A model generated the notes under the pieces. The model ran no database searches. It had not been told where the DNA came from and saw nothing but the letters and a program-made list of their open reading frames with translations. Position numbers and translations under genes: made by a program. A stretch of DNA of 41,190 nucleotides from an uncultured Schlesneria sp. (GTDB taxonomy: Bacteria > Planctomycetota > Planctomycetia > Planctomycetales > Planctomycetaceae), in assembly GCA_903858935.1 (NCBI GenBank), contig CAIOKO010000063.1, positions 1 to 41,190 on the forward strand, in the 5' to 3' direction. Position 1 is the first letter of the stretch, and every line of letters starts with the position of its first letter. This document shows, in pieces, positions 5,884 through 21,294 of this stretch.

Positions 5884-7002
5884 TTACAAATTCATTTTGT
5901 TCGGAAGTGAAAATCGGAAGGTCGATCCGATTCCTTCCCGGCTTTCGACTGTCACTTGGCCACCACTCGCCTCGGTAAACACCTTTACGATGGCAAGCCC
6001 CAGCCCGAATCCCCCTTCACTATTCGGATCGGATTCTCCTTTGTCGAAGATCCGATCGAGATACTCTTTCGAGATTCCCTTCCCAGTGTCAGTCACCCAG
6101 CACTCAACGCTTTCTTCCGCAGACTGTACTTTTGCCCCCACAGTCACTTCACCTTCCGGGGTGTATTTGATGGCGTTGGCAATTAGGTTCTGAAAGACCC
6201 GCCTCAACACACTTGCATCTGCAAAAACAATCAAATCGTCTGGAACCTGATTGATCAAATGAGTCTTGGAAGTCATTGCCAAGGGATGCAGATCGCGAAT
6301 CAGTGACTCGACAAGCGGCCACAAGTCGAACTCTCGTTTTTCCAGTTTGAGTCCAGTGTCAGCCTTAAGATTCGCATTCTCCTCGAGGACCTTGTCGACG
6401 AGTTTTTCGAGTTGCGTCACGTTGCGACGCAAGGCATTAAAGATCTTCGCCGCTTCGGGGACAATTTCCCGCTCAGGAATTGTCAGCTCAAGGATTTGCA
6501 CAGCAAGAGAAATCGCACTCAAAGGAGTTCGAAGATCGTGGGCGACAAACGCGAGGTATTCTTCCCGGCGTTGCTGCACCTCCATCGCACGCTGAGTCGC
6601 GTAAGATTGCAGTGCCAAGCCGATCGCATGATCAAAGACACGGTTAATGATATGAAAAGGTCGCCCCTGCAGGCTCACTCCGTGGCGATCACCAAGATCG
6701 TGAATGCAACCCCGAAGGATATTGTATTCTGCAACCACCTCTTCAATATCAAATCCATCTTCGACACGTTGAACACCATGAGCGGGGGCGCTCACTTCCT
6801 GGAGTGATTCAGGGATCGTCTGGCCGGTATCGGATTCGAGCGCCGTTGCCAATTCGACAAGTATTGTTGGTATATGGTCATTGAGCGTTGGGATATCAAG
6901 GTGCCGCGCACAGGGAAGTTCCCGCACTTGTTGCCGCCATCTCGAAAGTAAATCCTGAAGTTCCTGTTTGACGAGTGCCGCTAATTGTTGAGCAGTGTTC
7001 AT
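5884..7002 (-). CDS. Sensor histidine kinase with RsbRD-like N-terminal domain
   Basis: The 372-residue soluble kinase has no membrane segment. Residues about 10-140 fit the RsbRD/RsbR N-terminal fold seen in stressosome proteins (HGVQRVEDGFDIEEVVAEYNILR). The H-box FVAHDLRTPLSAI, N-box NLIANAIKYT, G1 DTGKGI and G2 GFGLGLAI follow, so HisKA and HATPase_c are complete. The second ATG (7002) is 12 bases after AAGGA, whereas the first ATG (7014) directly abuts it, so the second is preferred. No response regulator is adjacent. A cytoplasmic stress sensor is a reasonable inference. Confidence 0.88.
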   Translation of the reverse strand: MNTAQQLAALVKQELQDLLSRWRQQVRELPCARHLDIPTLNDHIPTILVELATALESDTGQTIPESLQEVSAPAHGVQRVEDGFDIEEVVAEYNILRGCIHDLGDRHGVSLQGRPFHIINRVFDHAIGLALQSYATQRAMEVQQRREEYLAFVAHDLRTPLSAISLAVQILELTIPEREIVPEAAKIFNALRRNVTQLEKLVDKVLEENANLKADTGLKLEKREFDLWPLVESLIRDLHPLAMTSKTHLINQVPDDLIVFADASVLRRVFQNLIANAIKYTPEGEVTVGAKVQSAEESVECWVTDTGKGISKEYLDRIFDKGESDPNSEGGFGLGLAIVKVFTEASGGQVTVESREGIGSTFRFSLPNKMNL

Positions 7003-7346
7003 CGTTTGCAGCATTCCTTCGTTGTATCGATTCGAACAGAACCAGATGCTGCGAGTCTCTGATGAGGCTGATAAGCAAGAGAGTCAGCAGAACCAAGAAT
7101 CGTGGCCCCAGTTCACCACGACGACCATAACCCCAAGATTTTCGGTGGGGGCAGGTCGGCAATGCGATGCTTCACGCGAGGATCAAAATCCCGAGCAGCA
7201 TCGTACCCGGCATTTCCATTTCTCTTTTTCCCACAAAAACGACGCTGACTTACGATTTGAGCATCGCTGCATTCGGAATGCACATTGAAGAAAACCGGCT
7301 TCGTGTTCGCCCAAACGTCCGCCGGTCGACTCCCAATGCTTTCGAG
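7003..7346. other. Intergenic stretch without a recognisable gene
   Basis: This 344-base gap lies between the kinase start and the stop of the 76-residue membrane protein gene. Reading frames present on both strands have no ribosome site or protein-like composition. I see no repeat or strong hairpin. Confidence 0.5.
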
Positions 7347-7620: not shown

Positions 7621-7770
7621 CTAGATGGGCGACCGGCCCCCGATAATCCTCAATAAAATGACGACCACGGCGACGACCAGCAGCAAATGGATCAATCCGC
7701 CAGCCGTGACTGAAGAGACCATTCCCAACAACCAGAGAATCACAAGTAGAACAACGATCGTCTCAAGCAT
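7621..7770 (-). CDS. Lmo0937-family small membrane protein (copy 1)
   Basis: This 49-residue protein begins MLETIVVLLVILWLLGMV and continues with SSVTAGGLIHLLLVVAVVVI and a short tail LLRIIGGRSPI. The arrangement of two hydrophobic helices around a GG-L-IH-LL core is typical of the Lmo0937 family, whose founding member belongs to the Listeria general stress regulon. AGGAG stands about 12 bases upstream of the ATG. It is nearly identical to the protein at 20948-21097. Its leader contains one of five homologous attenuator-like RNA elements. Function is unknown; a role in envelope stress is inferred only from the family. Confidence 0.85.
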   Translation of the reverse strand: MLETIVVLLVILWLLGMVSSVTAGGLIHLLLVVAVVVILLRIIGGRSPI

Positions 7771-7850: not shown

Positions 7851-7960
7851 AAAAAGCCGACCAACTGGAACTTCTGTTAAAAAGTTCCGGTTGGTCGGCT
7901 TACGCTTTCTCGCTGACAGGCCCCGCCAAATGGCGGCTGCCGTTCATTTGTCTTCCGACT
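7851..7960 (-). promoter_or_regulatory. Leader RNA element A: aptamer-like fold plus intrinsic terminator
   Basis: Read on the minus strand, the element starts AGUCGGAAGAC and continues to a hairpin CCGCC-AUUU-GGCGG nested in GGC/GCC. It then runs to GCGUAAGCCGAC, which is also the 5' arm of a long hairpin (GCCGACCAAC paired with GUUGGUCGGC, plus GGAACUU with AAGUUCC) closed by a U5 tail. A terminator about 80 bases upstream of the Lmo0937 start means transcription must be able to read through it. Homologous elements B, C, D and F are described below. The ligand or trigger is unknown. Confidence 0.7.
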
Positions 7961-7966
7961 GACGCG

Positions 7967-7995
7967 ATTATACCGTTTCGTGCTCGAGATTCACA
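7967..7995 (-). promoter_or_regulatory. Candidate promoter of leader A
   Basis: On the minus strand a perfect TATAAT occupies 7972-7967, with TGTGAA 17 bases before it. A start six to seven bases downstream would fall on the first base of the conserved AGUCGG block of leader A. The same TGTGAAT block stands in the matching place before leader B, with a poor -10 (TAGAGC). This is positional evidence only. Confidence 0.45.
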
Positions 7996-8002
7996 GGAAG
8001 CC

Positions 8003-8335
8003 TCATCTGACGGCTTCCAGGTACCGGTAATCGTACATCCACCCCTCACCCTCTACGTCGCTCAGAACGGCGATGCGGCCGGTGCTCATGAACGCCAGCT
8101 TGAAGATCTCCCATTGATCGGCATTAATATCGCCTTGCTGTGAGGTCACGCCACCTTCTTCCCAGACGATCGTCACGCCGTGACCACCGGGAATCGCGAA
8201 ATGCCCAAGTCGAGTAACTCGGCCGAAATGCCATTCGAACTTGGCACCGGCCTTCTTCGCCTGCGCCGCTTCCAACGCGTCTCCGCCCGCTTCGTGCGTC
8301 TGGTGCTTCGTTGACCCTGACTTTTGCTTCGCCAT
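8003..8335 (-). CDS. Hypothetical protein, 110 residues
   Basis: The N-terminal 30 residues are polar and rich in Lys, Ala, Gln and His. The rest is a compact beta-rich region: FEWHFGRVTRLGHFAIPGG, VTIVWEEGGVTSQQ and a C-terminal WMYDYRYLEAVR. No signal peptide, membrane helix or known motif is visible. The ribosome site is weak. The gene sits just upstream of leader A on the same strand but is separated from it by that element's own promoter. Not recognised; composition and length look like a real planctomycete small protein. Confidence 0.6.
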   Translation of the reverse strand: MAKQKSGSTKHQTHEAGGDALEAAQAKKAGAKFEWHFGRVTRLGHFAIPGGHGVTIVWEEGGVTSQQGDINADQWEIFKLAFMSTGRIAVLSDVEGEGWMYDYRYLEAVR

Positions 8336-8726
8336 CGTTTTCTCACTTTCTGTTGTGGTTCACCGATCGCCTGGTTTTCAATTTTGAAAAGACTTTACGT
8401 TCGCATCTTTCACAGCTTTTCCTCTCAGGGAATGGCGCGAAAGTCTATCGAACAAAAAGAGCATTATCCACGTCTCATATGACGCGATTGGGCCACCATA
8501 AGAATTAACAGGTTATTTCATTCCCTTGGCAACGATTCAAAGAATGCAGGATGTCTTGCGGGCCGTGGTGACGATCTTTCAATTTAGATTTGCCGATGAT
8601 TGATGCATTTTTTAAAATCGAAGTGCGACAACAGTCGCGTCATCAGGCGAACTCACTTCGCTCGAATGACGTACGAAATTGGAGAAATGTTCCTGTAATC
8701 AAGCCGTCTGGAAAGGAGCTGGCAAC
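8336..8726. other. Intergenic stretch without a recognisable gene
   Basis: This gap of about 390 bases lies between two divergent small genes and must hold both promoters. It is AT-richer than its surroundings, but I find no unambiguous -35/-10 pair, repeat or hairpin. Confidence 0.45.
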
Positions 8727-8969
8727 GTGACTCGGGCGACACATGTCAACGATGTTGAGTTGAGCGATGCGGAGAATTATTTTTTTCAACGGTGCAATGA
8801 GCACGGCATCGTTTTCGAACAATTGACGAACGAATCCAAAGCGATTTGCCTCGCAATTATTTCTTCCGCGAACTACATCGCAGACATGGTCGCAGCCTCG
8901 CATCACGACACACACAAAACGCTTTCCGCCAGCGAGTCCCGACCTACCAACGGAACGATTAAACGATAA
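8727..8969 (+). CDS. Hypothetical small protein, 80 residues
   Basis: A GTG start at 8727 is preceded by AAAGGAG at eight bases, a strong site that decides the start; an upstream in-frame ATG at 8679 has none. The product has a helical middle (ELSDAENYFFQRCNEHGIVFEQ, then ICLAIISSANYIADMVAASHH) and a polar tail. It has no membrane segment or known motif. An imperfect GACCG/CGGTC hairpin follows the stop at about 8978-9001. I do not recognise the family. Confidence 0.55.
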   Translation: MTRATHVNDVELSDAENYFFQRCNEHGIVFEQLTNESKAICLAIISSANYIADMVAASHHDTHKTLSASESRPTNGTIKR

Positions 8970-9226
8970 AAAACAGGATGCGACCGTTCTCTCGTGCGGT
9001 CAACGTCAGTCAGCACGCGATTCGGCGAGAGGCGAAGAGCGCGTCAAACTTATGACTTAACGGATAAAGCGCAAGCAAAGGTGCCTCTCTCGGTATGGTC
9101 ACACGTTGCAACAGCGGCACAAGCTTGCCTGGCTGTACTGCGATAGTCCAATAATTGGCGGGCGGTCATAAGCTGGCAAGGTCTACGGAATCCGTCGACC
9201 AAAAACAACGTCGGCTTAGTTAACCA

Positions 9227-9241
9227 GACAGGGGTCCTGTC
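9227..9241 (-). terminator. Hairpin at the end of the P-type ATPase gene
   Basis: GACAGG (9227-9232) pairs perfectly with CCTGTC (9236-9241) around a three-base loop, overlapping the stop codon of the ATPase gene. A TAAGCCGACG block followed by a U-rich run comes next on the minus strand. It is a plausible but short terminator. Confidence 0.4.
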
Positions 9242-11873
9242 AGATCCAATTTCTCTTCAGTAGCCACATTTTGACCAACTGTGTCAGAATGGCATAACAG
9301 ACGAGTGTGATCGCTAACAGCGGCCAGTACAGCGACGGCAGTGCCATGAAGCCCAGAGAACGCCCCAGCGCCGTGAACGGAATGGCGATTCCAGTCATCA
9401 TGATCACCACAGACATGACCATCATTGGCAAGGACGCTCGGCTTTGTAGAAACGGAATTTTGTTGGTGCGGATAATGTGAATGATCAGTGTCTGCGTCAG
9501 TAAACTCTCGACAAACCAGCCCGTCTGAAAGAGACTCGCACTTCGAGCCGCAGCCTCGGGCGTGGAAACGTTCCAGCAGTTAAACACATAAAGCATCATG
9601 AAATATGTCGTGTAGTCGAAGATCGATGAGCACGGGCCAATGAAAACGATGAAGCGTGTCAGCCGTTTGATGTCCCAGGGGCGCGGCTTCTCGACCTGCT
9701 CGGGGTCGACATCATCGGTCGGAATCGTCGTCTGGCCGATGTCATACAACAGGTTGTTCGCCAGGATCTGGATCGGGGCCATCGGTAAAAACGGGACGAA
9801 AACGCTCGCACCGAGAACGCTGAACATGTTGCCGAAGTTGCTGCTGGCCCCCATGCGGACGTACTTGAGGATGTTGGCAAAAACCTTTCGCCCTTCGACA
9901 ACGCCCGCTTCCAGGACCATCAGCGATTTTTCCAGCAGAATCATATCGGCCGACTCTTTGGCAACGTCCACTGCTGTATCAACGCTGATTCCGACATCCG
10001 CCGCGTGCAAGGCGGGGGCGTCATTGATGCCGTCGCCCATGAACCCCACCGTGTGCTTGCGAGACTGCAGGGCCTTGATGATCCGTTGCTTGTGAGCAGG
10101 AGTCACTCGAGCAAAAAGCGTCGCTTTTTCGGAGGCATCGGCAAGTTGGGTGTCGGACATCTTCTCGACATCACTGCCAAGCAACATGACCGATGTGTCG
10201 AGACCGACCTCTTTGCAGATCTTGCGTGCAACCAGATCGTTATCTCCGGTGACAACTTTGACTGATACCCCGTGACTTTGCAAAGCCTTGATCGCCGCAG
10301 CAGCCGTTTCCTTCGGCGGGTCCAGAAAGGCGACATAGCCGTTCAAGATCAGGTCGCGTTCATCGTCCTTGGAATACGGCGTCGAGTCTCCCACCACGGC
10401 GCCTCGCGACTCAAGGTCTTTGCTGGCGATTGCCAGGACGCGGAAGCCATCGGCGGAAAGTGTCTCGTATTCCTTCTTCAACTGTTCGATGTGCGGGTGA
10501 TCCATCGGGTTGAGTTTGTCCGCGAGCGTGAAGTTCGCACAGCGTGGGAAGATCTCTTCTGGTGCTCCCTTGCTGATAATTCGGTCCTTGCCTTCAGGCG
10601 TACGCACGACAACAGACATGATGCGACGCTGGAAGTCGAAGGGGATCTCGTCCACTTTTGCATAATCGGGAATCTTTGCGTGAGTGTGGACTTCTGTGTG
10701 GGCCAGCACCGCGCGATCCAGGACGTTCTTCAATCCCGTCTGAAAATGGCTGTTCATATAGGCCAGCGCGAGCACGCGATCGTCCTCTTTCAATTCAACG
10801 TCGCAATGTCTTTCCAGAATCACACGATCCATCGTGAGCGTGCCGGTCTTGTCGGTGCAGAGCACATCCATCGCACCCAGGTTCTGAATCGCATTGATCC
10901 TTTTGACGATCACCTTCTGACGGCTCATTTCCAGCGCCCCTTTTGAGAGACAGACCGTCACGATCATCGGCAACATATCCGGAGTAAGACCCACGGCCAC
11001 GGCGACAGCGAAGAAAAAGGCTTCCACCCAGTTCCCCTTGGTAAAGCCGTTAATCAGAAAGACAAGAGGAACCATCACCAGAATGAATCGCAGCATCAAC
11101 CAGGTGAATTGAGCAATTCCTTTGTCGAAAGCGGTTTCTTGTGGAACATCGGAAAGCGAATGGGCCATCCCCCCCAGATAGGTTTCTTTACCGGTCGTCA
11201 CGACAACTGCCGTCGCCGATCCGCTTTCGACGCTCGTACCAAGGAAGGCGATGTTCGCCAGATCAATCGGCGCGGTTGTCGCAGCATCCTTGACGATCGC
11301 AAACTTCTCCACAGGCAGGCTCTCGCCTGTGAGTGAGCTTTGAGTCACGAACAGATCCTTCGCCGTCACGATCCGCACATCGGCAGGGATCATATCCCCT
11401 GCCGCCAACTGGATCATGTCACCGGGAACCAGTTGGGAAACCGCGATTTCCTGAGATTTGCCATCACGAGTAACGGTGGCAGTGACCGAGATCATCGCTT
11501 TTAACCGGGCCGCCGCACGTCCCGCCTTCGCTTCCTGGATCAGCCTCAGACCGACACTTGTCACGACCATCAGCGACATCATGATGCCGGCCCGCGGGTC
11601 ACGGGTGGCGAATGAGATGGTTGCCAGGAACAGTAGAAGAATCACGAGCGGGTTGAGAACCGCACCCCAGAGCAGCATCAGAAGACTGGTTTGCTGGTCT
11701 TTTGCCAGCTCATTCGGCCCATGCTTTGCGAATCGAGTGCGAGCCTCGTCGCCGGTCAAACCTTCGCGTCGCGTCGAAAGTTTTGCCAGGACCGCTTCAA
11801 TCTCCATCGCCGCCGAGTCAATCAACGTTTTTGAGACTTGCGTTACTGCCGTCGTGACTTTTGCTTGTGACAT
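9240..11873 (-). CDS. mgtA: Magnesium-translocating P-type ATPase (MgtA/MgtB type)
   Basis: The 877-residue P3B-type ATPase has a cation-ATPase N-terminal domain (about residues 20-90) and the actuator motif SLTGES (180-185). The M4 sequence VGLTPDMLPMIV (about 294-305) is characteristic of MgtA. The phosphorylation motif DKTGTLT has its Asp at 341. The hinge motif VTGDN and the MGDGINDAPAL motif follow, then the C-terminal M5-M10 bundle. Length matches MgtA (860-900). It imports Mg2+ across the inner membrane. The leader holds a strong U-tailed hairpin (11910-11959), which may simply end the preceding gene or attenuate this one. Confidence 0.92.
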   Translation of the reverse strand: MSQAKVTTAVTQVSKTLIDSAAMEIEAVLAKLSTRREGLTGDEARTRFAKHGPNELAKDQQTSLLMLLWGAVLNPLVILLLFLATISFATRDPRAGIMMSLMVVTSVGLRLIQEAKAGRAAARLKAMISVTATVTRDGKSQEIAVSQLVPGDMIQLAAGDMIPADVRIVTAKDLFVTQSSLTGESLPVEKFAIVKDAATTAPIDLANIAFLGTSVESGSATAVVVTTGKETYLGGMAHSLSDVPQETAFDKGIAQFTWLMLRFILVMVPLVFLINGFTKGNWVEAFFFAVAVAVGLTPDMLPMIVTVCLSKGALEMSRQKVIVKRINAIQNLGAMDVLCTDKTGTLTMDRVILERHCDVELKEDDRVLALAYMNSHFQTGLKNVLDRAVLAHTEVHTHAKIPDYAKVDEIPFDFQRRIMSVVVRTPEGKDRIISKGAPEEIFPRCANFTLADKLNPMDHPHIEQLKKEYETLSADGFRVLAIASKDLESRGAVVGDSTPYSKDDERDLILNGYVAFLDPPKETAAAAIKALQSHGVSVKVVTGDNDLVARKICKEVGLDTSVMLLGSDVEKMSDTQLADASEKATLFARVTPAHKQRIIKALQSRKHTVGFMGDGINDAPALHAADVGISVDTAVDVAKESADMILLEKSLMVLEAGVVEGRKVFANILKYVRMGASSNFGNMFSVLGASVFVPFLPMAPIQILANNLLYDIGQTTIPTDDVDPEQVEKPRPWDIKRLTRFIVFIGPCSSIFDYTTYFMMLYVFNCWNVSTPEAAARSASLFQTGWFVESLLTQTLIIHIIRTNKIPFLQSRASLPMMVMSVVIMMTGIAIPFTALGRSLGFMALPSLYWPLLAITLVCYAILTQLVKMWLLKRNWI

Positions 11874-11909
11874 TTGGTTCCAGACGGCGATGAGAAGAAT
11901 CTTGGGACG

Positions 11910-11959
11910 AAAAAAGCCGACGCGTCAGAACGCCTTGAAGGGAATTCTGTCACGTCGGC
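11910..11959 (-). terminator. U-tailed hairpin between the Gly/Tyr-rich gene and mgtA
   Basis: On the minus strand GCCGACGUG...ACAGAA pairs over about 15 bases with UUCUG..CGCGUCGGC and is followed by U6. The hairpin belongs to the same sequence type (GCCGAC...GUCGGC-Un) as the terminators of leaders A-D. The upstream conserved block (UCGGRARAC, internal hairpin) is not convincingly present here. It lies 49 bases after the stop of the Gly/Tyr-rich gene and 37 bases before the ATPase start, so it could serve as terminator, attenuator or both. Confidence 0.65.
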
Positions 11960-12007
11960 TGCTGATGTGGTATCGCTGTTGTATGGCCAAAGCGTAATCG
12001 ATCCATT

Positions 12008-12361
12008 TTAAAATATGGAAAGTCCGAACCCTAAAGGCCCTTGGTAGACAAATCCATTTCCATAGTTGTAGTCGTTTCCATAGCCAACGTACCCATTGCC
12101 ATAGCTACCGTATCCATATCCATTGCCGGTATACCCATTGTTGTACGGGTCATACCCATAATTGGAATACCCGTAAGCGTTTAACCTTCGTGGGCCGTAA
12201 CCGTTATCAAAACGGCCATTTCCATAACCGTAATAACGACGAACACCAGGACCACTTCTTACATATCCGTTATAATATGGACCGTACGCATGACTCTCGC
12301 CCGCAGTCACAACGAGAATGCCCAGGAGCAGTATCATTAAGTCAAGCCGTCGTTTCATCAT
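12008..12361 (-). CDS. Gly/Tyr/Asn-rich secreted protein
   Basis: From ATG at 12361 (AAGG just upstream) the 117-residue product has a signal peptide MMKRRLDLMILLLGILVV ending near ESHA-YG. A low-complexity mature part follows, built from YGNGY, YGYGSYGNGY and GYGND units, about one third Gly and one quarter Tyr. The frame continues upstream to 12442 without a ribosome site. Such repeats suggest a surface or extracellular structural protein; no enzyme motif is present. It sits between the PRC-barrel gene and mgtA on the same strand. Confidence 0.7.
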   Translation of the reverse strand: MMKRRLDLMILLLGILVVTAGESHAYGPYYNGYVRSGPGVRRYYGYGNGRFDNGYGPRRLNAYGYSNYGYDPYNNGYTGNGYGYGSYGNGYVGYGNDYNYGNGFVYQGPLGFGLSIF

Positions 12362-12475
12362 CTGTGCCTTGTGGATGAGTGATTGAATTGATCGAAACAA
12401 ACAAATGTGGCACAGGACGCGGTGAGTTCGGTCCCATGCCACAAAATCGAAGATGTTTGAAACAAACTTCTACGG

Positions 12476-13531
12476 TTAGTTCTTATCGACCACCAATTTG
12501 ACTTCTGGAGCGTTCTTTCGATGAGCTCGCAGTTCCGTCAATTGTTCCTTGGTGAGTACTTTTTCGATCGCCACCATCTTGGAGGCCGAAAGCGAAAGCA
12601 GTCGCGCGTGCATGCCCTCAATTTCGCGGTTCATCGAACGCAATTGAGAGCGGTATTTCCCTTCGACTTTATCTGCCGCTTCTTCCTGATCCGAAGTGAG
12701 AGTCACACCGACCCCTTCATGTGCTTCTTCGATCGCATTGACGGGCTTGTCTGCGGCCTGATTCGGAGCGGTGTTTGTTGCCTGGACGGCCTTTTCATAT
12801 TTGGCTGTCTTCAGCCGATGACTTCTGACTTTTTCACGTTGAGGTTCTGTCAGATTATCTTCAATCGCGGCGAGCAACTGCGATTCCAACTCAATGGTCT
12901 GCAGATACCGGCTGCCGAATTGCTTAGAAACCATATTCATCGATTCGTCGTAGTTGGAGATGATCCCCTTAATCTGTTCATGTTGCTTCTCTGAAAGCTT
13001 CAGTTTTTCCAGGCATTCCGGGATTGCAGCAGCATTGGATTGCACTAGGACAAGAGCGGCCAGCTTTGTCGAATGCTGTACCGTTTTCAGCGGACCATAA
13101 AACTTGTCAACGTTCGCCCATGCGGGATCACCAGCGACAGGCCAATGGCTCTTGTCGAACCCAGGTGCATTTTTGAGCTTTTCCTTGGTTGTTGCCAGTA
13201 CAAGATGCTCTACCTTGTCATTGGTCCCAAGCTTGAAAGCGTCCCATGGGACCGCGAACAGCTTGTCGCCAATTCCGATAAAGCCACCAAAATCAAGAGC
13301 GGCGTAGACGATCGCACCGCTGTCCAACTCGATGACCAGATCCTTCACTTTACCGAGGTCTTCTCCAGCAGCGTTGCGGACCGCCATCCCCTCAATCGCG
13401 CTGGTTCGGAAATGATGCGTCACCGCCGAATTCGTCTTTTGATCGGCGCTTTTATCGTCTGCAATCACTTGCATGCTCAGAAAGCTTAACGACAACGCGG
13501 CGACCGATAACACTGTTGCACAAGTCTTCAT
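12476..13531 (-). CDS. PRC-barrel domain protein with Spy-like C-terminal helices, exported
   Basis: This 351-residue protein has a signal peptide (residues 1-24, ending VIA-DD). A PRC-barrel follows at about residues 42-120 (EGMAVRNAAGEDLGKVKDLV, then GFIGIGDKLFAVPWDAF). Beyond residue 170 it is helical with two LTxxQ-like stretches, LKLSEKQHEQIKGII and LTKEQLTELRAHR. These recall the periplasmic Spy/CpxP fold but are not diagnostic. AAGGAG lies seven bases before the ATG. PRC-barrel proteins occur in stress and envelope-surveillance settings, in agreement with its neighbours. The binding partner is unknown. Confidence 0.82.
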   Translation of the reverse strand: MKTCATVLSVAALSLSFLSMQVIADDKSADQKTNSAVTHHFRTSAIEGMAVRNAAGEDLGKVKDLVIELDSGAIVYAALDFGGFIGIGDKLFAVPWDAFKLGTNDKVEHLVLATTKEKLKNAPGFDKSHWPVAGDPAWANVDKFYGPLKTVQHSTKLAALVLVQSNAAAIPECLEKLKLSEKQHEQIKGIISNYDESMNMVSKQFGSRYLQTIELESQLLAAIEDNLTEPQREKVRSHRLKTAKYEKAVQATNTAPNQAADKPVNAIEEAHEGVGVTLTSDQEEAADKVEGKYRSQLRSMNREIEGMHARLLSLSASKMVAIEKVLTKEQLTELRAHRKNAPEVKLVVDKN

Positions 13532-13641
13532 ACTTCAGCTCCTTTTTTTCAGAAAATGCGGTGACCTTCTCGCAGACGCAACAAGCGACTGTATCCCACG
13601 CCCCTTTTCAGGCTGATGGGGAATCCGGTCATCACTGACAG

Positions 13642-13674
13642 GGAGTCTGAATCGCTGAAAACGATTCAGACTCC
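13642..13674. terminator. 13-bp perfect stem-loop
   Basis: GGAGTCTGAATCG (13642-13654) pairs exactly with CGATTCAGACTCC (13662-13674) around a seven-base loop. It lies downstream of the PEP-CTERM gene and upstream of the PRC-barrel gene. No U tract follows on either strand, so it may be a Rho-assisted terminator or an mRNA-stabilising hairpin. Confidence 0.5.
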
Positions 13675-13735
13675 ATTCGTTTCAGGCGGGCGAAGTCGAC
13701 TGCGTCGACTCGTTCATTTTGTCGCTGTTGCCCGG

Positions 13736-14413
13736 CTATAATGCACACGCCATACGGCGACGCGCAATTGCAATAATGCCAACCCCGATCGCCGACAGCG
13801 TTTGACAAAGCGTGCCAGGTTCGGGAACTGCCGTAGAATCAGACGTCGTCACTTCCATCTGAAAAGGACCGTTCGTATCTGAATTCGCTGTTACCGTAAG
13901 AACGCCCAATGGATAGTAGGCCCAGTATTCGCCGCTGACACCAACCCCCTTCGCATCCGTTGCATAGTCCCAGGCCACAGTTGACGACGGACTCGACGGA
14001 GCGGTATTCAATTCAACCCAGTACCGCGTATTGGCGGCGAGAACATAATTTGCGACAGGAATGTCGTAGACCGAAGCCGTTGTCGCCAAAGTACTGTCAC
14101 TAAACGTTCCGAGCGTGACCAGCCGCGACCCTGGACTGCTGGATGAATCACTGAAGAGGCTCACCGTAAATTGGGGTCCCCCTGGAGTGCCCGGGAAACC
14201 TGAGAGCATCATCTTGATATCCGTGAGTACCGAAGAACTGCTGCCGGTCGAAAAGGAATCGAAAGACGGACCATCCACAGAAACAGGGTCCGTTCCACCG
14301 GAGGTCGTGACGTTGGGAAGATTGTTATAAATATCGTTTGCTTCTGCAGCAGCCCCTAACAACATCATGCAACATGCGCTCATTGCAATGACGTACATCC
14401 GAAGACAATTCAT
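13736..14413 (-). CDS. PEP-CTERM sorting domain protein
   Basis: The 225-residue product has an N-terminal signal peptide (to about residue 26, AAAEA-ND). A Ser/Thr-rich beta domain with motifs such as FTVSLFSDSSSSPGSRL and NTRYWVELNT resembles the 'choice-of-anchor' family. A PEP-CTERM tail closes it: AVPEPGT, a hydrophobic helix and the basic end ARRR. The protein should be exported and processed by an exosortase; none is in this window. GAGGAG seven bases before the ATG supports the start. Confidence 0.85.
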   Translation of the reverse strand: MNCLRMYVIAMSACCMMLLGAAAEANDIYNNLPNVTTSGGTDPVSVDGPSFDSFSTGSSSSVLTDIKMMLSGFPGTPGGPQFTVSLFSDSSSSPGSRLVTLGTFSDSTLATTASVYDIPVANYVLAANTRYWVELNTAPSSPSSTVAWDYATDAKGVGVSGEYWAYYPLGVLTVTANSDTNGPFQMEVTTSDSTAVPEPGTLCQTLSAIGVGIIAIARRRMACAL

Positions 14414-14640
14414 TCGTCAACTCCTCATCCCCAGGAAAGATTCTGCGGCCTACGTTCACTATAAACGGCAAAACCGCGGCGGTACTTCTGATTGTCACAT
14501 TGACTCATTGACTCACAGAACCAAAGTCCAGTCGCCCGACCGACTGCCAGTGACAGCGAGCAGACTAGGTCTCGCGTCGTGTATTCCTAATTGCTTTGCC
14601 AGCGGGCAAAGCCACACGGATTAATTCCACAGCATCGGTC

Positions 14641-14745
14641 TTAATAATCGTTGCCGTCATCGGACGGTAAATTGCGTTCCCATGAGATAGCCTGATGGTC
14701 TCGTTTGAGTTTGCTGGTCACGTCGACATTAAATTGACTTTTCAT
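14641..14745 (-). CDS. Possible 34-residue ORF
   Basis: This short frame encodes a polar peptide starting MKSQFNVDVTSKLKRDHQ and ending in an acidic tail. AAAAGG lies ten bases before the ATG. Nothing else fills the 490-base gap between 14414 and 14903. Without homologs it cannot be distinguished from chance. Confidence 0.25.
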   Translation of the reverse strand: MKSQFNVDVTSKLKRDHQAISWERNLPSDDGNDY

Positions 14746-14903
14746 TCGTAAAGAACCTTTTCGCCTGTCGCAATCGGATGGCCCTCGTCACAGCAGGCCA
14801 CCTGCGATCAACAGCGACAACATAAACGGGAACGAGCGACACGACTCATTCGAGAGGTCGCTGGTGTCACATGCTCGTACTCCAAAGCTGGCCGAATGAT
14901 CGG

Positions 14904-15089
14904 TCAGTCAAGGTTACTCACCTGATATTTAGCTTGTCGGTGATCCTGACTAAACGCGTTTACTTGCTTTATTGTTTTCGCAATCCTGAAACTGATCATG
15001 GCCCCGAAGAAGCCGCCAACTATTAATAAAGACACCAAAAAGCCTTCTGCTGCCACGAGCGGAACGGAGGCCACTACGAGACTTAGCAT
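14904..15089 (-). CDS. Small membrane protein, about 61 residues
   Basis: The product has two hydrophobic stretches (about residues 2-12 and 16-36, FLVSLLIVGGFFGAMISF) and a polar helical tail, AKTIKQVNAFSQDHRQAKYQ. ATG at 15089 has GGGGA six bases upstream. A GTG at 15125 in the same frame would add 12 residues but has only a weak site. The family is not recognised. Its long leader contains element D, so it joins the other tiny membrane proteins behind this RNA element. Confidence 0.6.
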   Translation of the reverse strand: MLSLVVASVPLVAAEGFLVSLLIVGGFFGAMISFRIAKTIKQVNAFSQDHRQAKYQVSNLD

Positions 15090-15254
15090 TTCTTTCCCCA
15101 CTTGAATTGAGACAATGTTGGTCACAATTAGCGATCTCTTTTCAGGGTCATTTAACCATACCTATTGGTACTGAGAATTGGAGAAAGCCGGGTGAAATAT
15201 CTTGCCTGTCGAACTTAAACCTCTTTAATGAGCTGTCAACACACGTCGAAAAAC

Positions 15255-15390
15255 AAAAAAAGCCGACGTGATGAAACACCAGAAGGAATTTCATCGCGTC
15301 GGCTTACTCAGTAACAAGCCTCTCGGTAAGTGCCGAGTTGCTTTTTATTTAGTTTTCCGATGTGGCAAGGTAACAGGGTTTCACCTTGCC
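15255..15390 (-). promoter_or_regulatory. Leader RNA element D with an extra 5' hairpin
   Basis: On the minus strand a hairpin GGCAAGGU/ACCUUGCC (15390-15364) precedes the block AUCGGAAAAC. Then come AAAGC-AA, the stem CUCGG/CCGAG and GCUU, so AAGC pairs with GCUU around the stem. GAGUAAGCCGAC leads into the terminator: GCCGACG with CGUCGGC, and GAUGAAAUUCC with GGUGUUUCAUC, with U7 at 15261-15255. Inner and outer stems differ in sequence from A and B but keep pairing. It lies about 130-165 bases upstream of the small membrane protein start. Confidence 0.7.
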
Positions 15391-15572
15391 CCACATTCGC
15401 TACTTCATGTTACGGGATTATTTTTAAATAGCAATGACTGAATGGCGATTATTCCAGGAACAGTAAGGAAACGCGAAATAACGCCGCGTTGAGTTAATGC
15501 CCCTCATTAATTTTGATTTTAAGCATGCAGTCGTCTTTCCTCGCTTATCGTGATAACATATCCCCAGCAATT

Positions 15573-15677
15573 ATCGGGAGACTTGATAAAGGGCAACCCA
15601 GCCATATCGAGGGGCTCGTTTCAGAGTAAACCGGCATGAATGAATACCTGAGTGTGTTCATCCACGTCGGTTTTTTT
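15573..15677 (+). promoter_or_regulatory. Leader RNA element F upstream of the Csp gene
   Basis: This is the only plus-strand copy. AUCGGGAGAC (15573-15582) is followed by GGGC-AA, a weak CC(C)/(G)GG hairpin and GCU, so GGC pairs with GCU. GAGUAAACCGGC then begins a terminator (CCGGC...GUCGG plus AUGAAUAC with GUGUUCAU, two A-C mismatches) with U7 at 15671-15677. Its block order and length (105 nt) match A-D although the sequence is clearly diverged. It stands 77 bases before the start codon of the Csp-type gene. Confidence 0.62.
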
Positions 15678-15754
15678 GTTTCTGTCACTCGGATCGAGAC
15701 ATCATTTTCTGATGCTGGTATCGAGATGACAGTCTTTCAGGAAAAGGTTTGGTC

Positions 15755-16198
15755 ATGAAGAATCGAATGTCCTGTGGAATCGGCGCAATGGTTTTGTCGA
15801 TGTGCTTTTCGATCGTCGGCGTTGACGTACTCGCCCGTCCGGCGCAAGCGGCTGAATCGAAATCCCATGCCATGTTGCAAGAGTGTGCGAAAGCGTGCTC
15901 GGACTGTCAGCGAGCGTGCGACCACTGTTCAACCCATTGCGCGCGCCTGCTGGCCGATGGCAAGAAGGAACACCTGGTAAGCCTCATGCACTGTCAGGAC
16001 TGCGCAACGAGTTGTGCTGCCTGTGCTCAAATCTGTGCGCGAGGCGGGCCGCTTGCCGCCGTGATGGCCGATTGCTGTGCCAGATGTTGCGACCAATGTG
16101 CTAAATCGTGCGAAGCCTTTCCGATGGATGCCCATATGAAGGCCTGCGCCGAGGAATGCCGTAAGTGTGAGAAATCGTGCAAGACGATGGCCAAATAA
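15755..16198 (+). CDS. Csp-type four-helix-bundle copper-storage-like protein
   Basis: The 147-residue product has an N-terminal signal sequence (about residues 1-33, ending AQA-AE). The mature helical part has about 21 cysteines, mostly in CxxxC and CxxC spacing (ECAKACSDCQRACDHC, CQDCATSCAACAQIC, CARCCDQCAKSC). This is the DUF326/Csp1 pattern, in which Cys thiolates line the core of a four-helix bundle and bind many Cu(I) ions. ATG at 15755 has AAAAGG seven bases upstream. Export suggests an extracytoplasmic metal store. Its leader carries element F. Confidence 0.85.
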   Translation: MKNRMSCGIGAMVLSMCFSIVGVDVLARPAQAAESKSHAMLQECAKACSDCQRACDHCSTHCARLLADGKKEHLVSLMHCQDCATSCAACAQICARGGPLAAVMADCCARCCDQCAKSCEAFPMDAHMKACAEECRKCEKSCKTMAK

Positions 16199-16203
16199 CT
16201 GGT

Positions 16204-16245
16204 GAGCGACACTGAGCGACCGTCTTCGGTCACTCAGTGTCGCTC
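16204..16245 (+). terminator. Long hairpin after the Csp gene
   Basis: GAGCGACACTGAGCGACCG pairs with CGGTCACTCAGTGTCGCTC with one mismatch around a four-base loop (TCTT). It starts five bases after the Csp stop. No T run follows. Its core resembles the palindromes at 23141 and 24284, so it may be a repeat-derived terminator. Confidence 0.6.
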
Positions 16246-16309
16246 GCTTGCCAATTTACGAGTCAAATTCACTGAGTCGGAGGAGACTCTATAGAGGCTT
16301 CATATTAGA

Positions 16310-16550
16310 CCAAAGTAGCCATCATCGCTTCGCGTGATGAGCATTGTTCGAAAAACTACCAGATTCCAATCCGCATATTTTCTTAGAAACAAAATTCAAA
16401 CGATGTTTTTGTACCGATGCGTCGGCAACGCTTGAATAGTTATCGACGCATGCTCATCACGCGGAGCGATGATGGCTACTTTGGATGAAATCCTGAATCT
16501 TGACTCAATGAGTCAAATTTCAAACTCGAAGAAGTCCGGTGCTGTGGCAC
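16310..16550 (+). repeat. MITE-like dispersed repeat, copy 1
   Basis: A 35-bp inverted repeat (16310-16344 and 16450-16484, beginning CCAAAGTAGCCATCATCGC) encloses about 105 bases. An attached 66-base segment ends in GTGGCAC and has a degenerate CTTGACTC/GAGTCAA-type hairpin. The same unit recurs at 17380-17618, inverted at 22742-22969, and as a fragment at 29765-29849. No transposase is encoded. Confidence 0.8.
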
Positions 16551-16553
16551 GTC

Positions 16554-16592
16554 GTGTGTGTGTGTGTGTGTGTGTGTCGGGGGGGGGGGGGG
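16554..16592 (+). repeat. Microsatellite (GT)12-C-G14
   Basis: Twelve GT dinucleotides (16554-16577) are followed by a C and a run of 14 G (16579-16592). The tract abuts the right end of repeat copy 1. Such tracts are prone to slippage and may be mis-sized in the assembly. Confidence 0.9.
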
Positions 16593-16679
16593 AATATTCC
16601 GTCATCAGTTTCCCTGCAACACAACAGTTTTCACGGGCCAATACCCCGACAACAATAATTGGCAGCTACGAAGGGATTC

Positions 16680-16835
16680 TCAAATACGGCCGAGCAAGAC
16701 CAGAATCAGCAGGATCACAAAAATGGTCCCCAGTCCGCCACTTGGACCATAGCCCCAGTTTCTGCTGTGTTGCCAGGTAGGGACCGAGCCAAGAAGCATC
16801 AGAATTAAAATCACCAGCAGGATCGTACCAAGCAT
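16680..16835 (-). CDS. DUF3309 family small membrane protein
   Basis: From ATG at 16835 (AAGGA about ten bases upstream) the 51-residue product has a hydrophobic helix MLGTILLVILILMLLGSVPTW. A short polar turn follows with WGYGPSGGLG, then a second helix IFVILLILVLLGRI. The central tryptophan/GYGPSGGLG motif is diagnostic of DUF3309. Function is unknown; members are tiny inner-membrane proteins often found near stress genes. Leader element C lies 110 bases upstream. Confidence 0.88.
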   Translation of the reverse strand: MLGTILLVILILMLLGSVPTWQHSRNWGYGPSGGLGTIFVILLILVLLGRI

Positions 16836-16945
16836 TTTCGTTTTCCTTTTTACTATCAGACCGAGACGGAAGATCGAGTCCTTCCACAACGAGTGGAAAC
16901 ACCAGAGACGATTCCCATCGACTTAATGCACGGGACCGGAAAAAC

Positions 16946-17094
16946 AAAAAAGCCGACGCAGCAGAACACCCAAAGGTATTCCATTGCGTCGGCTTACTTA
17001 CTAACCAGCCTCCCGGAACCAGCCGGGCTGCTTTTTATTTAGTTTTCCGATCCCTGTTGAAAGAGAGGTACTGTCTCAGCAACTCTCTTTCAAC
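16946..17094 (-). promoter_or_regulatory. Leader RNA element C with an extra 5' hairpin
   Basis: On the minus strand a perfect 12-bp hairpin GUUGAAAGAGAG/CUCUCUUUCAAC (17094-17056) precedes AUCGGAAAACUAAAU. Next come AGC-AG, the stem CCCGG/CCGGG and GCU, so AGC pairs with GCU. AGUAAGCCGAC runs into the terminator (GCCGACGCA with UGCGUCGGC and a long G-U-rich extension) with a U6 tail at 16951-16946. It is closest to D, but stem sequences have changed on both sides, which supports pairing. Confidence 0.72.
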
Positions 17095-17379
17095 TCTCCT
17101 TAGGGTACGCCTTTTTCTTTGTAATAACAATCAGCTCATCCGAATTGAGGCTCATTGACTAAATAAAAGTAGTAATGCCTGCCAGTTATGCTCAGCCACG
17201 GGTTAATTGCAGATGCTCTTCCATACAACGCCGTGAAGCATTGTTTGTTCGAGAAAAGAAATCGTTTCGAAACCGTGCCACGGCTTTGATGTCCTCAGAC
17301 AAGCAGTGCCGAGCTGCAAAACGAACGTTGACTCCAAGACACGGCTTCTCCGAAGACTCCAGTGAGGTTTTGCGTCAGA
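17095..17379. other. Intergenic stretch, no gene seen
   Basis: This lies between leader C and repeat copy 2. It must contain the promoter of leader C on the minus strand, but no clear hexamer pair is visible. The last 30 bases (CTCCGAAGACTCC block) resemble sequence flanking the other repeat copies. Confidence 0.4.
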
Positions 17380-17618
17380 CTTAAGTAGCCACCATCGTTC
17401 CGCGCGATGAGCATTGTTCGAAAACCTATCAAACTCCAATCCGCATGGTCTCAAATCAGAAATTCAAACGGAATATCTGTCCCGATGCTTCGGCAACGGT
17501 TGAATCGTTTCCGACGCATGCTCATCACGCGGAGCGATGATGGCTACTTTGGAAGAAATCCTGAAACTTGACTCAACGAGTCAAGTTTCAGACCCGAAGA
17601 AGTCCAAAGCAGTGGCAC
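17380..17618 (+). repeat. MITE-like dispersed repeat, copy 2
   Basis: The inverted repeats are at 17380-17414 (diverged) and 17518-17552 (perfect consensus). The attached segment holds a perfect 14-bp hairpin CTGAAACTTGACTC/GAGTCAAGTTTCAG (17561-17591) and ends GTGGCAC. It stands beyond the 3' end of the hybrid kinase gene. Confidence 0.8.
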
Positions 17619-17710
17619 ATCTCGACGAAGAAAGTCGAAACATGCTTCATGGCATTGACTGTGCGGGCGACAGGCCCCATAAAAAAAGGCCAACAATCGC
17701 TGCGGGAGTA

Positions 17711-20700
17711 TCAGTTTCTTTTTGCTGAGGCGGCTGCGAGTATTTGTTGTAATTTGTTGAAATCAGGCGGTTTGACCAGATGATGGTCGAACCCCGCCTC
17801 TTTCGAACGCTGCCGATCTGAATCCTGTCCATATCCGGTCATGGCCACCAGGATCACATCCTTGAAGATTTTCTGTTGGCGCATTTTCCTGGCGACTTCG
17901 AAGCCGTCCATACCTGGTAATCCAATATCCAGCAGCACAACATTCGGACAGAAGTCTTGTGCTGCCGTCAATGTGGACGGACCGTCATGGACCGTCAGGA
18001 CTTCATGCCCTGATTTTAACAACAGCATCCCCAGCATCTGTGCAGCATCCTCGTTGTCATCCACGACCATGACACGCAAGGAACGATCGTTCTTCTGGGA
18101 GCTTTCGTTTTCTAATTCAATTGGTGGATTTGCAGTCGCCATCATGACCGGCAAATGCACAATGAACTCCGCCCCCTCTCCCAATGTACTGACGACTTCG
18201 ACTCGTCCTTTATGCATTTCGACGATGCGCTGTACCAGAGCCAGCCCGATTCCCAGCCCCCCTTGCGAACGATCAAGCGATTTTTCTGCCTGCGTGAACA
18301 GGTCAAAAATGTGTGGCAAAGTCTCCGGCGCAATACCAATGCCATTGTCCCTGACTCGCAAAACGCATTCGTCGCCTTCTTGCTGGACTCCCAGCCAGAT
18401 GTGGCCCGCATCGCGCGTGAATTTGGCGGCGTTAGTCAGCAGGTTGACAACGACTTGTTCCAGACGAGCCGCATCGGCGAAGACCCAGATCGGTTCCTTC
18501 GATAACGACACGGTGAGGGCGTGCTGGTGTCGGACAATCAATGGACGAACCGTCTCGACCGCATGTTCGACGACCGCATTCAGTGCAACCCGCTCCTGTT
18601 GAAGGTGGATTCTTCCAGTGGTGATCCGGGAAACTTCCAACAGATCGTCAATCAGTCGAGTGAGCTGCCCCACCTGACGCTCGATAATCGTGCGAGCCTT
18701 TTGCTGTATTGGATCTTCGTTCTTCTGGAGACCAAGAAGCTGTAAGGCACTGGCAATGGGAGAAAGAGGATTGCGGAGTTCGTGGCTGAGCATCGCCAGG
18801 AATTCATCCTTGCGGCGGTGCAGGTCTTCCAATGCGACGGCTTGCTCCCGCATCTGAATTTCCAGGCGGTTACGTTCGGCTTCCAACCGGCTGCGTTCCG
18901 TGATATCTCGAATGTTGCACTGAATCACCTTGTGGTGATCCTCATGGTAGGCGTTGGCGACAACCTCAACTTCAACCGTCAGTCCCGTGTTGGTTTCCAT
19001 TGGCAGGTGTTCGTAACGTATGTAGCCAGAGGTCTGAAGTGTTCGGACCGCAGCCTCATTGGCCGTCCTATCGCTGAAGAGTCCGATCTCCCACAGCTCT
19101 TTCCCCGAGAAATGTTCATGCGAATACCCCAATAGTTCGCTCATGAACGGGTTGGCATCGGTGATTCGCCCGGATTCCGTGTCAAGAATCAGGATGCCAT
19201 CTTTGGCCGTCTCGAAAAGACGCCGATAACGGATCTCCGAATCCATCAACGCCATTTCTGCCAGCTTGATGCCATGAATGTCCGTGTTGGCACCCATCCA
19301 CATGATGATCTGGCCCGATTCATCACGCATCGGCACGCCGCGACTGACATGCCAGTGATACTCACCATCGGCACGTCGGAACCGACTCTCGTGTTCGTAG
19401 ACTTCGCCGGTATTCGTCGCGTACAGCCAGCTTCGGATGTGATCGTCCACGTCATCGGGGTGGATGAACTGCTTCCATCCCCAATCCCGAATCTGTTCAA
19501 ACGTTAAGCCGGTATACTCCATCCACTGCGGATTGAAGTAGTCCACGCTTCCGTCCGGCTTGGTGGTGACAAGTTTTTGAGGTATCGATTCCAGTATGAA
19601 CCGAAGCCGCTCTTCACTTTCACGTACTGCGGCCTGTGTCCTCAGCTTCGCATAAACCACCGTGACGTAATGGGTAATCGTTTGCAGAAATGCCATTTCA
19701 TCCGTGTCGAATTCATCTTTCGACCGGCTTCCGAAAGAAAGCGTACCCAGCAGGATGTTGTCGGAGATCAGCGGATTGCAGACGTAAGCACGCAAACCAA
19801 TTGTTTTGACAAGCCTGGTATTCAGGTCATCGGACTGTTGGATGTAATTCGCCACGATGGGCTGACGAGACAATGCGACGGTACCGCTGATCGCCTGACC
19901 GAACTCCAGCTTCTCCTTCGTGTGAATGGACTCTTCAGAGACACCTTCGCACGAGACCAGCTTCAAAGTGTCTCCGCTCTCATCGACCCTGAAGTTAAAG
20001 TACGTGTCCAATCCCATATCCGGACCAACCGTGGTGAGCAGGCCGTGCAGCATGGCGTCGGGATCGGCGGCGGACAGCAGCATCCCCGCTGCCTCTAAAA
20101 GCAAATGCAGCCGTTCGTTCTTCTTTTCAAGAGCGACTTCCACCCGCTTGCGTTCAGTCACATCCCGAATCACACAGGCAATGAGAATCCCTTCATGGTC
20201 GGGAATTGGGCTGAGGCTGATTTCCACGGGGAACTCGGTGCCGTTTTTCCGCAATCCTAACAGGTTCAGACCCGCTCCCATCGGGCGAGTGCTGGGATTC
20301 ATCGCGTAACCGGCTCGCTGCATTCGATGATCGTCTCGAAGCCGCTCAGGCAACAGTAGTTCAACCTCCGTGCCAATCAACTCATCCCGCAGGTGCCCAA
20401 ACATACGCTCGGTCTGCCCATTCACACGGACGATTTTGCCCGACTCATCAGAGATGACGACGGCGTCGGGTGCGGCTTCCAAAAAGCTGCTGAACTGTCG
20501 CTGGGCCTGACGCCCGCGAATCAACGTGTTGACGAAGGAAAGCAACTCAACTTCTTCCACCGGATATGTCAGATACGCTTCGTCTCCCCGTTCCATGTGA
20601 TGTACAAACTCACTGCTTTCGACGGGAGCATCCGACAGATGAAGCACAGGGATGTTGGCGGTGGCGGCGTGAGCCTTCAGCCGACAACAGACCTCGAATC

Positions 20701-20896
20701 CGGTCATATCAGGAAGTTGAAGATCAAGCACAATCAGATCTGGCGTTTCCAACGCCAGACGAAGACCGTCTTCACCGTTCGTGGCATCTCGGATTTTGAA
20801 ACCCGCTCGACGAAGTGGCTTGTCCAGAGAATACCGCCGTTCCTCATTGGCGATAATGATCAAAGCGGTCAGGTGTTGAGCGTCGCGCATCGGCAT
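17711..20896 (-). CDS. Hybrid sensor histidine kinase with N- and C-terminal receivers, PAS and GAF domains
   Basis: This 1061-residue soluble protein is ordered as follows. Receiver (about 10-125; LIVLDLQLPDMTGFE). PAS (about 135-255; FLEAAPDAVVISDESG, ending VIRDVTERKR). GAF (about 268-420). PAS (about 435-550). PAS (about 555-675). HisKA with H-box MLSHELRNPLSPI (about 695-760). HATPase_c with N-box NLLTNAAKFT and G2 GLGIGLALV. C-terminal receiver (about 945-1061; VVLLDIGLPGMDGFE, Lys in VKPPD). No membrane segment is visible, so the signal is cytoplasmic or relayed. It lies 51 bases behind a Lmo0937-type gene on the same strand and so probably shares attenuated leader B. Confidence 0.93.
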   Translation of the reverse strand: MPMRDAQHLTALIIIANEERRYSLDKPLRRAGFKIRDATNGEDGLRLALETPDLIVLDLQLPDMTGFEVCCRLKAHAATANIPVLHLSDAPVESSEFVHHMERGDEAYLTYPVEEVELLSFVNTLIRGRQAQRQFSSFLEAAPDAVVISDESGKIVRVNGQTERMFGHLRDELIGTEVELLLPERLRDDHRMQRAGYAMNPSTRPMGAGLNLLGLRKNGTEFPVEISLSPIPDHEGILIACVIRDVTERKRVEVALEKKNERLHLLLEAAGMLLSAADPDAMLHGLLTTVGPDMGLDTYFNFRVDESGDTLKLVSCEGVSEESIHTKEKLEFGQAISGTVALSRQPIVANYIQQSDDLNTRLVKTIGLRAYVCNPLISDNILLGTLSFGSRSKDEFDTDEMAFLQTITHYVTVVYAKLRTQAAVRESEERLRFILESIPQKLVTTKPDGSVDYFNPQWMEYTGLTFEQIRDWGWKQFIHPDDVDDHIRSWLYATNTGEVYEHESRFRRADGEYHWHVSRGVPMRDESGQIIMWMGANTDIHGIKLAEMALMDSEIRYRRLFETAKDGILILDTESGRITDANPFMSELLGYSHEHFSGKELWEIGLFSDRTANEAAVRTLQTSGYIRYEHLPMETNTGLTVEVEVVANAYHEDHHKVIQCNIRDITERSRLEAERNRLEIQMREQAVALEDLHRRKDEFLAMLSHELRNPLSPIASALQLLGLQKNEDPIQQKARTIIERQVGQLTRLIDDLLEVSRITTGRIHLQQERVALNAVVEHAVETVRPLIVRHQHALTVSLSKEPIWVFADAARLEQVVVNLLTNAAKFTRDAGHIWLGVQQEGDECVLRVRDNGIGIAPETLPHIFDLFTQAEKSLDRSQGGLGIGLALVQRIVEMHKGRVEVVSTLGEGAEFIVHLPVMMATANPPIELENESSQKNDRSLRVMVVDDNEDAAQMLGMLLLKSGHEVLTVHDGPSTLTAAQDFCPNVVLLDIGLPGMDGFEVARKMRQQKIFKDVILVAMTGYGQDSDRQRSKEAGFDHHLVKPPDFNKLQQILAAASAKRN

Positions 20897-20947
20897 GAAT
20901 TGTTAACTCGCAGAAGTTCTTTGTGGAGAGACAAGAGGCAGCGACGG

Positions 20948-21097
20948 CTAGACAGGCGCTCGACCCCCGATAACCCGCAATAAAATCACGACGACGGCGA
21001 CCACCAGCAACAAATGGATCAATCCACCAGCCGTGACTGACGCGACCATTCCCAGCAACCACAGAATCACGAGCACGACGATAATTGTTTCCAGCAT
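20948..21097 (-). CDS. Lmo0937-family small membrane protein (copy 2)
   Basis: The 49-residue paralog of the protein at 7621-7770 begins MLETIIVVLVILWLLGMV and keeps the core SVTAGGLIHLLLVVAVVV; only conservative changes separate the two. GGAG lies about nine bases before the ATG. It is followed by the hybrid kinase gene, so a tiny membrane protein and a cytoplasmic kinase may be co-expressed. Leader element B lies 88 bases upstream. The pairing of a near-identical protein with a near-identical leader suggests duplication of the whole unit. Confidence 0.85.
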   Translation of the reverse strand: MLETIIVVLVILWLLGMVASVTAGGLIHLLLVVAVVVILLRVIGGRAPV

Positions 21098-21184
21098 TTG
21101 TTTTCTCCATTCTCAAATTGACTTCGAATCACTGGTCACGACATTCGCGATCAGATGTGTGAGCAAAGCGATCAGACCAAATGC

Positions 21185-21294
21185 AAAAAGCCGACCAACG
21201 GAAACCTCTGTTAAAAAGTTTCCGTTGGTCGGCTTACGCTTTCTTACTGACCGGCCCCGTCAAACGATGGTGGCCGTTCTCTTGTCCTCCGACT
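21185..21294 (-). promoter_or_regulatory. Leader RNA element B
   Basis: Minus strand: AGUCGGAGGACAAGAG, then GGC-CA, stem CCAUC/GACGG with one mismatch, and GCC. GGUCAGUAAGAAAGCGUAAG follows, then a 16-bp terminator (GCCGACCAACGGAAAC with GUUUCCGUUGGUCGGC) and a U5 tail. It is 110 nt long, like A. Compared with A, the terminator stem differs at compensated positions. The upstream TGTGAAT block seen before leader A is repeated here. Confidence 0.7.

Follow-up and report, generated by a model that had tools for sequence, protein, structure and literature searches.

Five elements of similar length and layout, lettered A, B, C, D and F, lie on both strands of a 41,190-nt stretch of DNA from an uncultured Schlesneria sp. 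(the whole of which is referred to here as the window), and they raise the question of what such elements are and what they do. The original prediction, made from the letters of this stretch, described them as riboswitch-like attenuator leaders in which a conserved hairpin runs into a U-tailed terminator. On re-reading the sequence, the positions and strands given for all five proved correct (Table 1).

A conserved RNA core within and beyond the window

When folded without their terminators, leaders B and D and a further copy (L001) adopt a common core of ~62 nt, a hairpin closed by the helix UCGG/CCGA (P1). Within it follow, in order, a 3x3 internal loop (RRR/AAR), the pairs ACU/AGU, a second 3x3 loop, the pairs UAA/UUA, a GC clamp and an apical stem of variable sequence. 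The unpaired positions conserved across the family include the two sides of the first loop (A-W-G and A-A-G), the A after the GC clamp and the G before GUUA. The predicted leader design thus holds, but the prediction did not detail its outermost part, in which UCGG pairs with CCGA and the 3x3 loop and AC(U)/(A)GU come next. It had also proposed an inner stem that differs between copies while its pairing is kept in four of them; interiors do vary in this way, but the inner stem of leader C is weak, and the minimum-energy fold of its isolated core departs from the consensus shape of B, D and L001. Leaders A and F are set apart as a divergent subtype by ~6 additional nucleotides in the 3’ strand, an insert that also shows when their isolated cores are folded. 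In full length, A, B, C, D and F are each more stable than their dinucleotide shuffles (z from -3.2 to -7.1, none of 200 shuffles being as low in any case), although the terminator hairpin accounts for much of this effect.

Table 1. Positions of the five leaders, their terminators and the genes that follow them in the window
Feature	Position	Strand	Evidence
Leader A core, divergent subtype	7894..7958	-	R1 32.1 bits, E 2.1e-6; isolated core closes UCGG/CCGA
Leader A terminator, GCCGAC common with core	7851..7899	-	Sequence; 3’ arm and U tract; stem in minimum-energy fold
Gene after leader A: 49-aa DUF5670 small protein	7621..7770	-	PF18919, E 3.3e-13
Leader B core	15298..15360	-	R1 85.9 bits (R1 training member); minimum-energy core fold equals consensus
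Leader B terminator	15255..15303	-	Sequence; 3’ arm and U tract
Gene after leader B: 61-aa small protein, no family match	14904..15089	-	
Leader C core, weak inner stem	15574..15635	+	R1 66.4 bits (R1 training member); minimum-energy fold of isolated core deviates
Leader C terminator	15630..15677	+	Sequence; 3’ arm and U tract
Gene after leader C: 147-aa Cys-rich Csp1-like protein	15755..16198	+	TIGR04401, E 3.7e-8, 33.7 bits (below cut-off of 100); no Pfam match
Leader D core	16988..17050	-	R1 84 bits (R1 training member); minimum-energy core fold equals consensus
Leader D terminator	16946..16993	-	Sequence; 3’ arm and U tract
Gene after leader D: 51-aa DUF3309 protein	16680..16835	-	PF11752, E 1.2e-23
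Leader F core, divergent subtype like A	21228..21292	-	R1 20 bits, E 0.0044; not reported by R2 at E<=1e-4
Leader F terminator	21185..21233	-	Sequence; stem in minimum-energy fold; 3’ arm and U tract
Gene after leader F: 49-aa DUF5670 small protein	20948..21097	-	PF18919, E 2.8e-13

Several other features of the region were observed. Leaders A and F, together with their DUF5670 genes, resemble a duplicated pair carrying a distinct core subtype. A histidine kinase with an RsbRD-type N-terminus (5884-7014) lies beyond leader A and a PAS/GAF hybrid histidine kinase (17711-20896) beyond leader F, and both would fit a stress island. A 45-bp inverted repeat of MITE-type appearance (16310-16484; arms 89% complementary, 85 nt between them) and a (GT)n tract leading into a run of 14 G (16554-16592) are also present. 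Directly 5’ of the core, within ~45 nt of it, a second hairpin of variable sequence is enriched across the family (z < -2 in 43 of 129 leaders). It is exemplified by 17056-17094 on the minus strand before leader D, and may belong to the leader RNA or act as an operator.

The sequence pattern TCGGRRRAC...GTAARCCGRC occurs eight times in the 7.9 Mb of the Schlesneria genome that contains the window, and the reversed pattern is absent from it. A covariance model, R1, was built from B, C, D and two other copies of the same genome. Applied to this genome it returned 20 matches at E <= 1, three of which are antisense echoes of the same hairpins, and in the window it found leader A and, weakly, leader F, as the prediction of a common family would have it. 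A second model, R2, was derived from a 43-sequence alignment of R1 hits in which 12 of 18 pairs are changed on both sides. Since R2 did not report F at the threshold given in Table 1, the membership of F is judged more by its architecture than by its score. The 216 model hits plus F, which was added by hand, were reduced to 196 distinct leaders.

The original prediction also pointed to covariation, which is present in sequences outside the training set. A further 53 leaders were aligned to R2, two of which (L160 and L163) duplicate training rows exactly, while another three are 91-98% alike. With the two identical rows removed, 94.9% of cells in the remaining 51 pair and both-side changes occur in 15 of 18 pairs; these changes amount to 70 cells, compared with a mean of 15.4 after shuffling, and none of 500 shuffles was as high. 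The outcome is similar for all 53 rows (pairing in 95.0% of cells, double changes at 15 of 18 pairs, and five measures on none of which any of 500 shuffles reached the observed value) and for the 48 rows that remain without all five sequences at least 91% alike (95.2% paired, 15 of 18 pairs, 67 double-change cells, none of 500 shuffles as high). Pairing falls to 41-46% when the partner is slid by one column. These figures are for rows aligned to the model, a procedure that favors the model’s own structure. RNAalifold was also read on a structure-free MAFFT alignment of 40 of the 53 sequences (39 of them outside training); it gave 14 pairs, 10 with double changes, that make up the outer, middle and apical helices, the UAA/UUA pairs not being recovered.

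A strand common to core and terminator

The closing strand of the core, CCGAC, is also the base of the terminator, and it pairs with GUCGG before the U tract when the terminator is included in the fold. This dual role had been proposed for the last conserved block of the five elements, and it extends across the family. Among leaders with at least 90 nt of downstream sequence, 187 of 190 have a 3’ arm that can pair with at least 5 of the last 6 nt of the core and leads into a U tract, compared with 17 of 183 control stretches taken 400 nt further on. The interior between the two terminator arms is variable in sequence, with a median length of 30 nt and exactly 30 nt in 106 of 189 leaders. Because the CCGAC strand is common to both, the core fold and the terminator fold are mutually exclusive. 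One leader, L015, carries the altered strands UCAG, GCUGGU and ACUGGU, so that both pairings are kept; such three-strand covariation is seen in few cases, as P1 has only four, nearly invariant pairs.

The energetics of this competition were computed for non-redundant leaders (146 minus near-copies, leaving 133, of which 128 have an identified terminator). The terminator base is part of the minimum-energy fold of the full leader in all 128, while the isolated core closes UCGG/CCGA in 127 of them, and closing P1 within the full leader costs a median of 9.2 kcal/mol. Given the much greater stability predicted for the terminator, termination would be the default of the unbound RNA and an ON switch the natural reading, with the proviso that the energy model speaks to equilibrium, where the terminator wins, and says nothing on switching.

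We consider it likely that the elements are riboswitch-like transcription attenuator leaders, off by default and turned on by a partner. According to this model, each element would serve as the 5’ leader of a gene, often one of stress type. In the ON state (fold 1) the ~62-nt core would close UCGG/CCGA around the conserved 3x3 loop, whereas in the OFF state (fold 2) the same CCGAC strand would form the terminator base that precedes the U’s. With nothing bound, the terminator would be favored and transcription would end prematurely. If a partner bound the core before the polymerase had finished the ~30-nt interior of the terminator, the core would stay closed and transcription would run on. The two folds would thus interchange in the cell, and binding would turn the genes on. 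Some observations fit the attenuator model less well: the isolated core of leader C prefers another fold, 3 of 190 leaders lack a recognized terminator, and the family is scattered very unevenly, with no copy in 7 of 14 relatives from the same genus.

Genes after the leaders and phylogenetic distribution

The elements are positioned as leaders, in keeping with the predicted placement before genes. Downstream of the 133 non-redundant leaders, the nearest predicted gene shares the leader’s strand in 114 cases and runs opposite to it in 5, and 14 leaders have no gene within range. Upstream, 45 genes share the strand and 65 are opposite. The median distance from the core to the start of the next gene is 120 nt. 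Neighboring genes were called with a home-made codon-usage finder, and target families were assigned from best-guess frames. Among the matches listed for the 138 longest downstream frames are 19 MpsC proteins, 6 sensor kinases with PAS domains, 6 Csp1, 4 BON/OsmY, 3 KaiC and 2 YflT proteins, 3 sigma-70 factors (best named RpoD/SigA, also RpoS), and single Hsp70, catalase and ice-binding proteins. Those listed for the 124 second frames include 4 MpsC, 4 DUF3309, 3 CsrA, 2 CsbD, 2 Transgly_assoc, 1 DUF1328 and 1 DUF5670 protein, and many of the frames in both sets have no family match. The original view that the genes are unrelated needs amending, as small stress-type families recur among the nameable targets, which are therefore not a random set; ‘stress-type’ is used here to describe these recurring families and makes no claim of enrichment.

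Within the genomes searched, the leader family is limited to Planctomycetota and one unclassified bacterium. Counting the Schlesneria genome itself in each case, matches were found in 16 of 59 relatives, 60 of 297 genomes of the same class and 7 of 294 in a phylum-wide draw. None was found in 194 genomes from the phylum of a Haloferula genome, in 200 from the phylum of a gammaproteobacterial genome, or in 16 non-planctomycete genomes that had chance matches to the sequence pattern; the wide searches used stricter filters, which can miss weak copies. Of 118 loci bearing the sequence pattern, 96 have a model hit and 22 do not, the latter comprising 21 from named non-planctomycetes and one from a Schlesneria MAG. 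Distinct leaders in named records are found at 85 loci of Planctomycetota (46 in Planctomycetia, 21 in Phycisphaerae, 5 in Brocadiia and 13 class-less) and at one locus of the unclassified bacterium. Within the genus, one relative carries 25 copies, and these natural leaders in a single genome are a ready test bed for finding the signal.

Candidate partners and known systems

The partner of the attenuator would most likely be a small molecule or ion, or else the linked protein MpsC1. We give about even weight to a riboswitch proper, with the core as the direct binding site of a metabolite or ion related to stress. The core is compact, with ~10 highly conserved unpaired positions, many copies per genome stand before recurring gene types, and competition for the terminator base is a feature of known riboswitches. 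The target genes, on the other hand, suggest no ligand and form no single pathway, and a search of the window with the 4227 models of Rfam 15 at gathering scores gave no match. With the same scores, six loci with relatives yielded a tRNA and no leader match, and in E-value mode all Rfam hits in positions 15000-17200 of the window fell below their cut-offs. The original statement that the elements belong to no known riboswitch class thus holds as far as Rfam 15 reaches, for the window and these six loci.

It is possible, though less likely, that antitermination is gated by a protein, MpsC1, which is encoded head-to-head with the leader and would bind the core and switch the regulon. Equally tentative is the associated suggestion that the leader before MpsC2, in the shared intergenic region, resembles a regulator’s home target. 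MpsC proteins (DUF2294, PF10057) are closely linked to the family: in a range of 1200 nt, 37 of the 196 leaders have a divergent MpsC1 gene upstream (35 genes) and 37 have MpsC2 downstream on their own strand (36 genes, 28 of them within 300 nt), with both present at 18 leaders. PF10057 is found in 50 of 60 leader-bearing but 44 of 237 leaderless class genomes (Fisher 8e-21, a value overstated by the kinship of the genomes). For 39 of these 44 leaderless genomes, the surroundings of the best MpsC hits (40 regions) contained no leader. In a rapid tree built on few columns, 35 of the 41 MpsC proteins from those regions group in a clade of their own (SH-aLRT 100). MpsC1 is also well conserved, with 62-91% identity to the copy of the Schlesneria genome for 34 of 35 others and 48% for one.

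Other observations speak against gating by MpsC1. Ten of the 60 leader-bearing genomes, each with 1-4 leader copies, have no MpsC hit, among them G011 (99% complete, 4 leaders), and in G281 an MpsC1/MpsC2 pair is unaccompanied by a leader, even in a search with filters off. MpsC1 is otherwise arranged in 8 cases (4 upstream on the same strand, 2 downstream on the same strand and 2 downstream on the opposite strand), its AlphaFold model gave no convincing match to a solved fold, and MpsC could simply be a favored target. MpsC1 is thus a strong candidate partner, though one that may not be needed in view of G281 and the ten MpsC-less genomes. The genomes G083, G254 and G281 (loci L233, L234 and L196), in which MpsC2, and in G281 also MpsC1, occurs without a detectable leader nearby, are usable as natural controls. 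In S. aureus, deletion of mpsC is reported to have left growth unaffected (PMC6689103), and the leader family offers a lead on the function of DUF2294/MpsC.

An independent small RNA acting in trans is improbable. The self-contained length and own terminator would suit one, and the terminated product could act in trans, but the next gene is overwhelmingly on the same strand, and a strand shared by core and terminator would have no evident role in a plain small RNA. A mobile or dispersed stem-loop repeat, which several copies per genome on both strands and a patchy occurrence among close relatives might suggest, is scarcely credible in view of interiors that differ with pairing kept, a fixed same-strand place before genes and a recurring MpsC neighborhood, and the original preference for a functional cis-acting RNA is supported by covariation outside the training set, the helices recovered from the structure-free alignment, the terminator in 187 of 190 leaders and the strand bias of 114 to 5.

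Returning to the attenuator model, a bolder and distinctly doubtful extension is that Planctomycetota might run part of their general stress response via one RNA switch, with up to 25 copies per genome, controlling stress effectors, sensor kinases, a sigma-70 factor and CsrA, with the head-to-head DUF2294 protein MpsC1 as its dedicated partner or signal reader. Should the attenuator model itself hold, the leaders would be a phylum-restricted RNA class linking transcription termination with a broad, stress-leaning regulon.

Among known systems, the fluoride and ZTP riboswitch classes also employ competition for the terminator base. The leaders resemble them in having a compact, aptamer-like core whose closing strand is the 5’ arm of the terminator, and in standing in several copies before related genes. 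Unlike these classes, the leaders have no Rfam match, their recurrent targets are stress-type effectors rather than members of one metabolic pathway, and in the searches made they were found only in Planctomycetota and the one unclassified bacterium. The RAT elements of the BglG/SacY type are hairpins with internal loops that overlap a terminator, at which CAT_RBD proteins cause antitermination. The leaders share this overlap, and protein-gated read-through is one of the explanations weighed above, but their core is ~62 nt. Antitermination of the BglG type is unlikely here, because the Schlesneria genome has no CAT_RBD match, whereas 4 of 14 control genomes were positive; a search for the ANTAR domain gave no match in this genome, but none in any control genome either. 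The Rhodopirellula-1 motif is listed as a possible cis-regulatory RNA of Planctomycetes and Proteobacteria (Weinberg et al. 2010, PMC2864571). The leader family differs in its absence from the 200 genomes of the gammaproteobacterial phylum, but the two may nevertheless be identical. We therefore call the leader family a putative new RNA class that combines a known working principle with an unusual set of targets.
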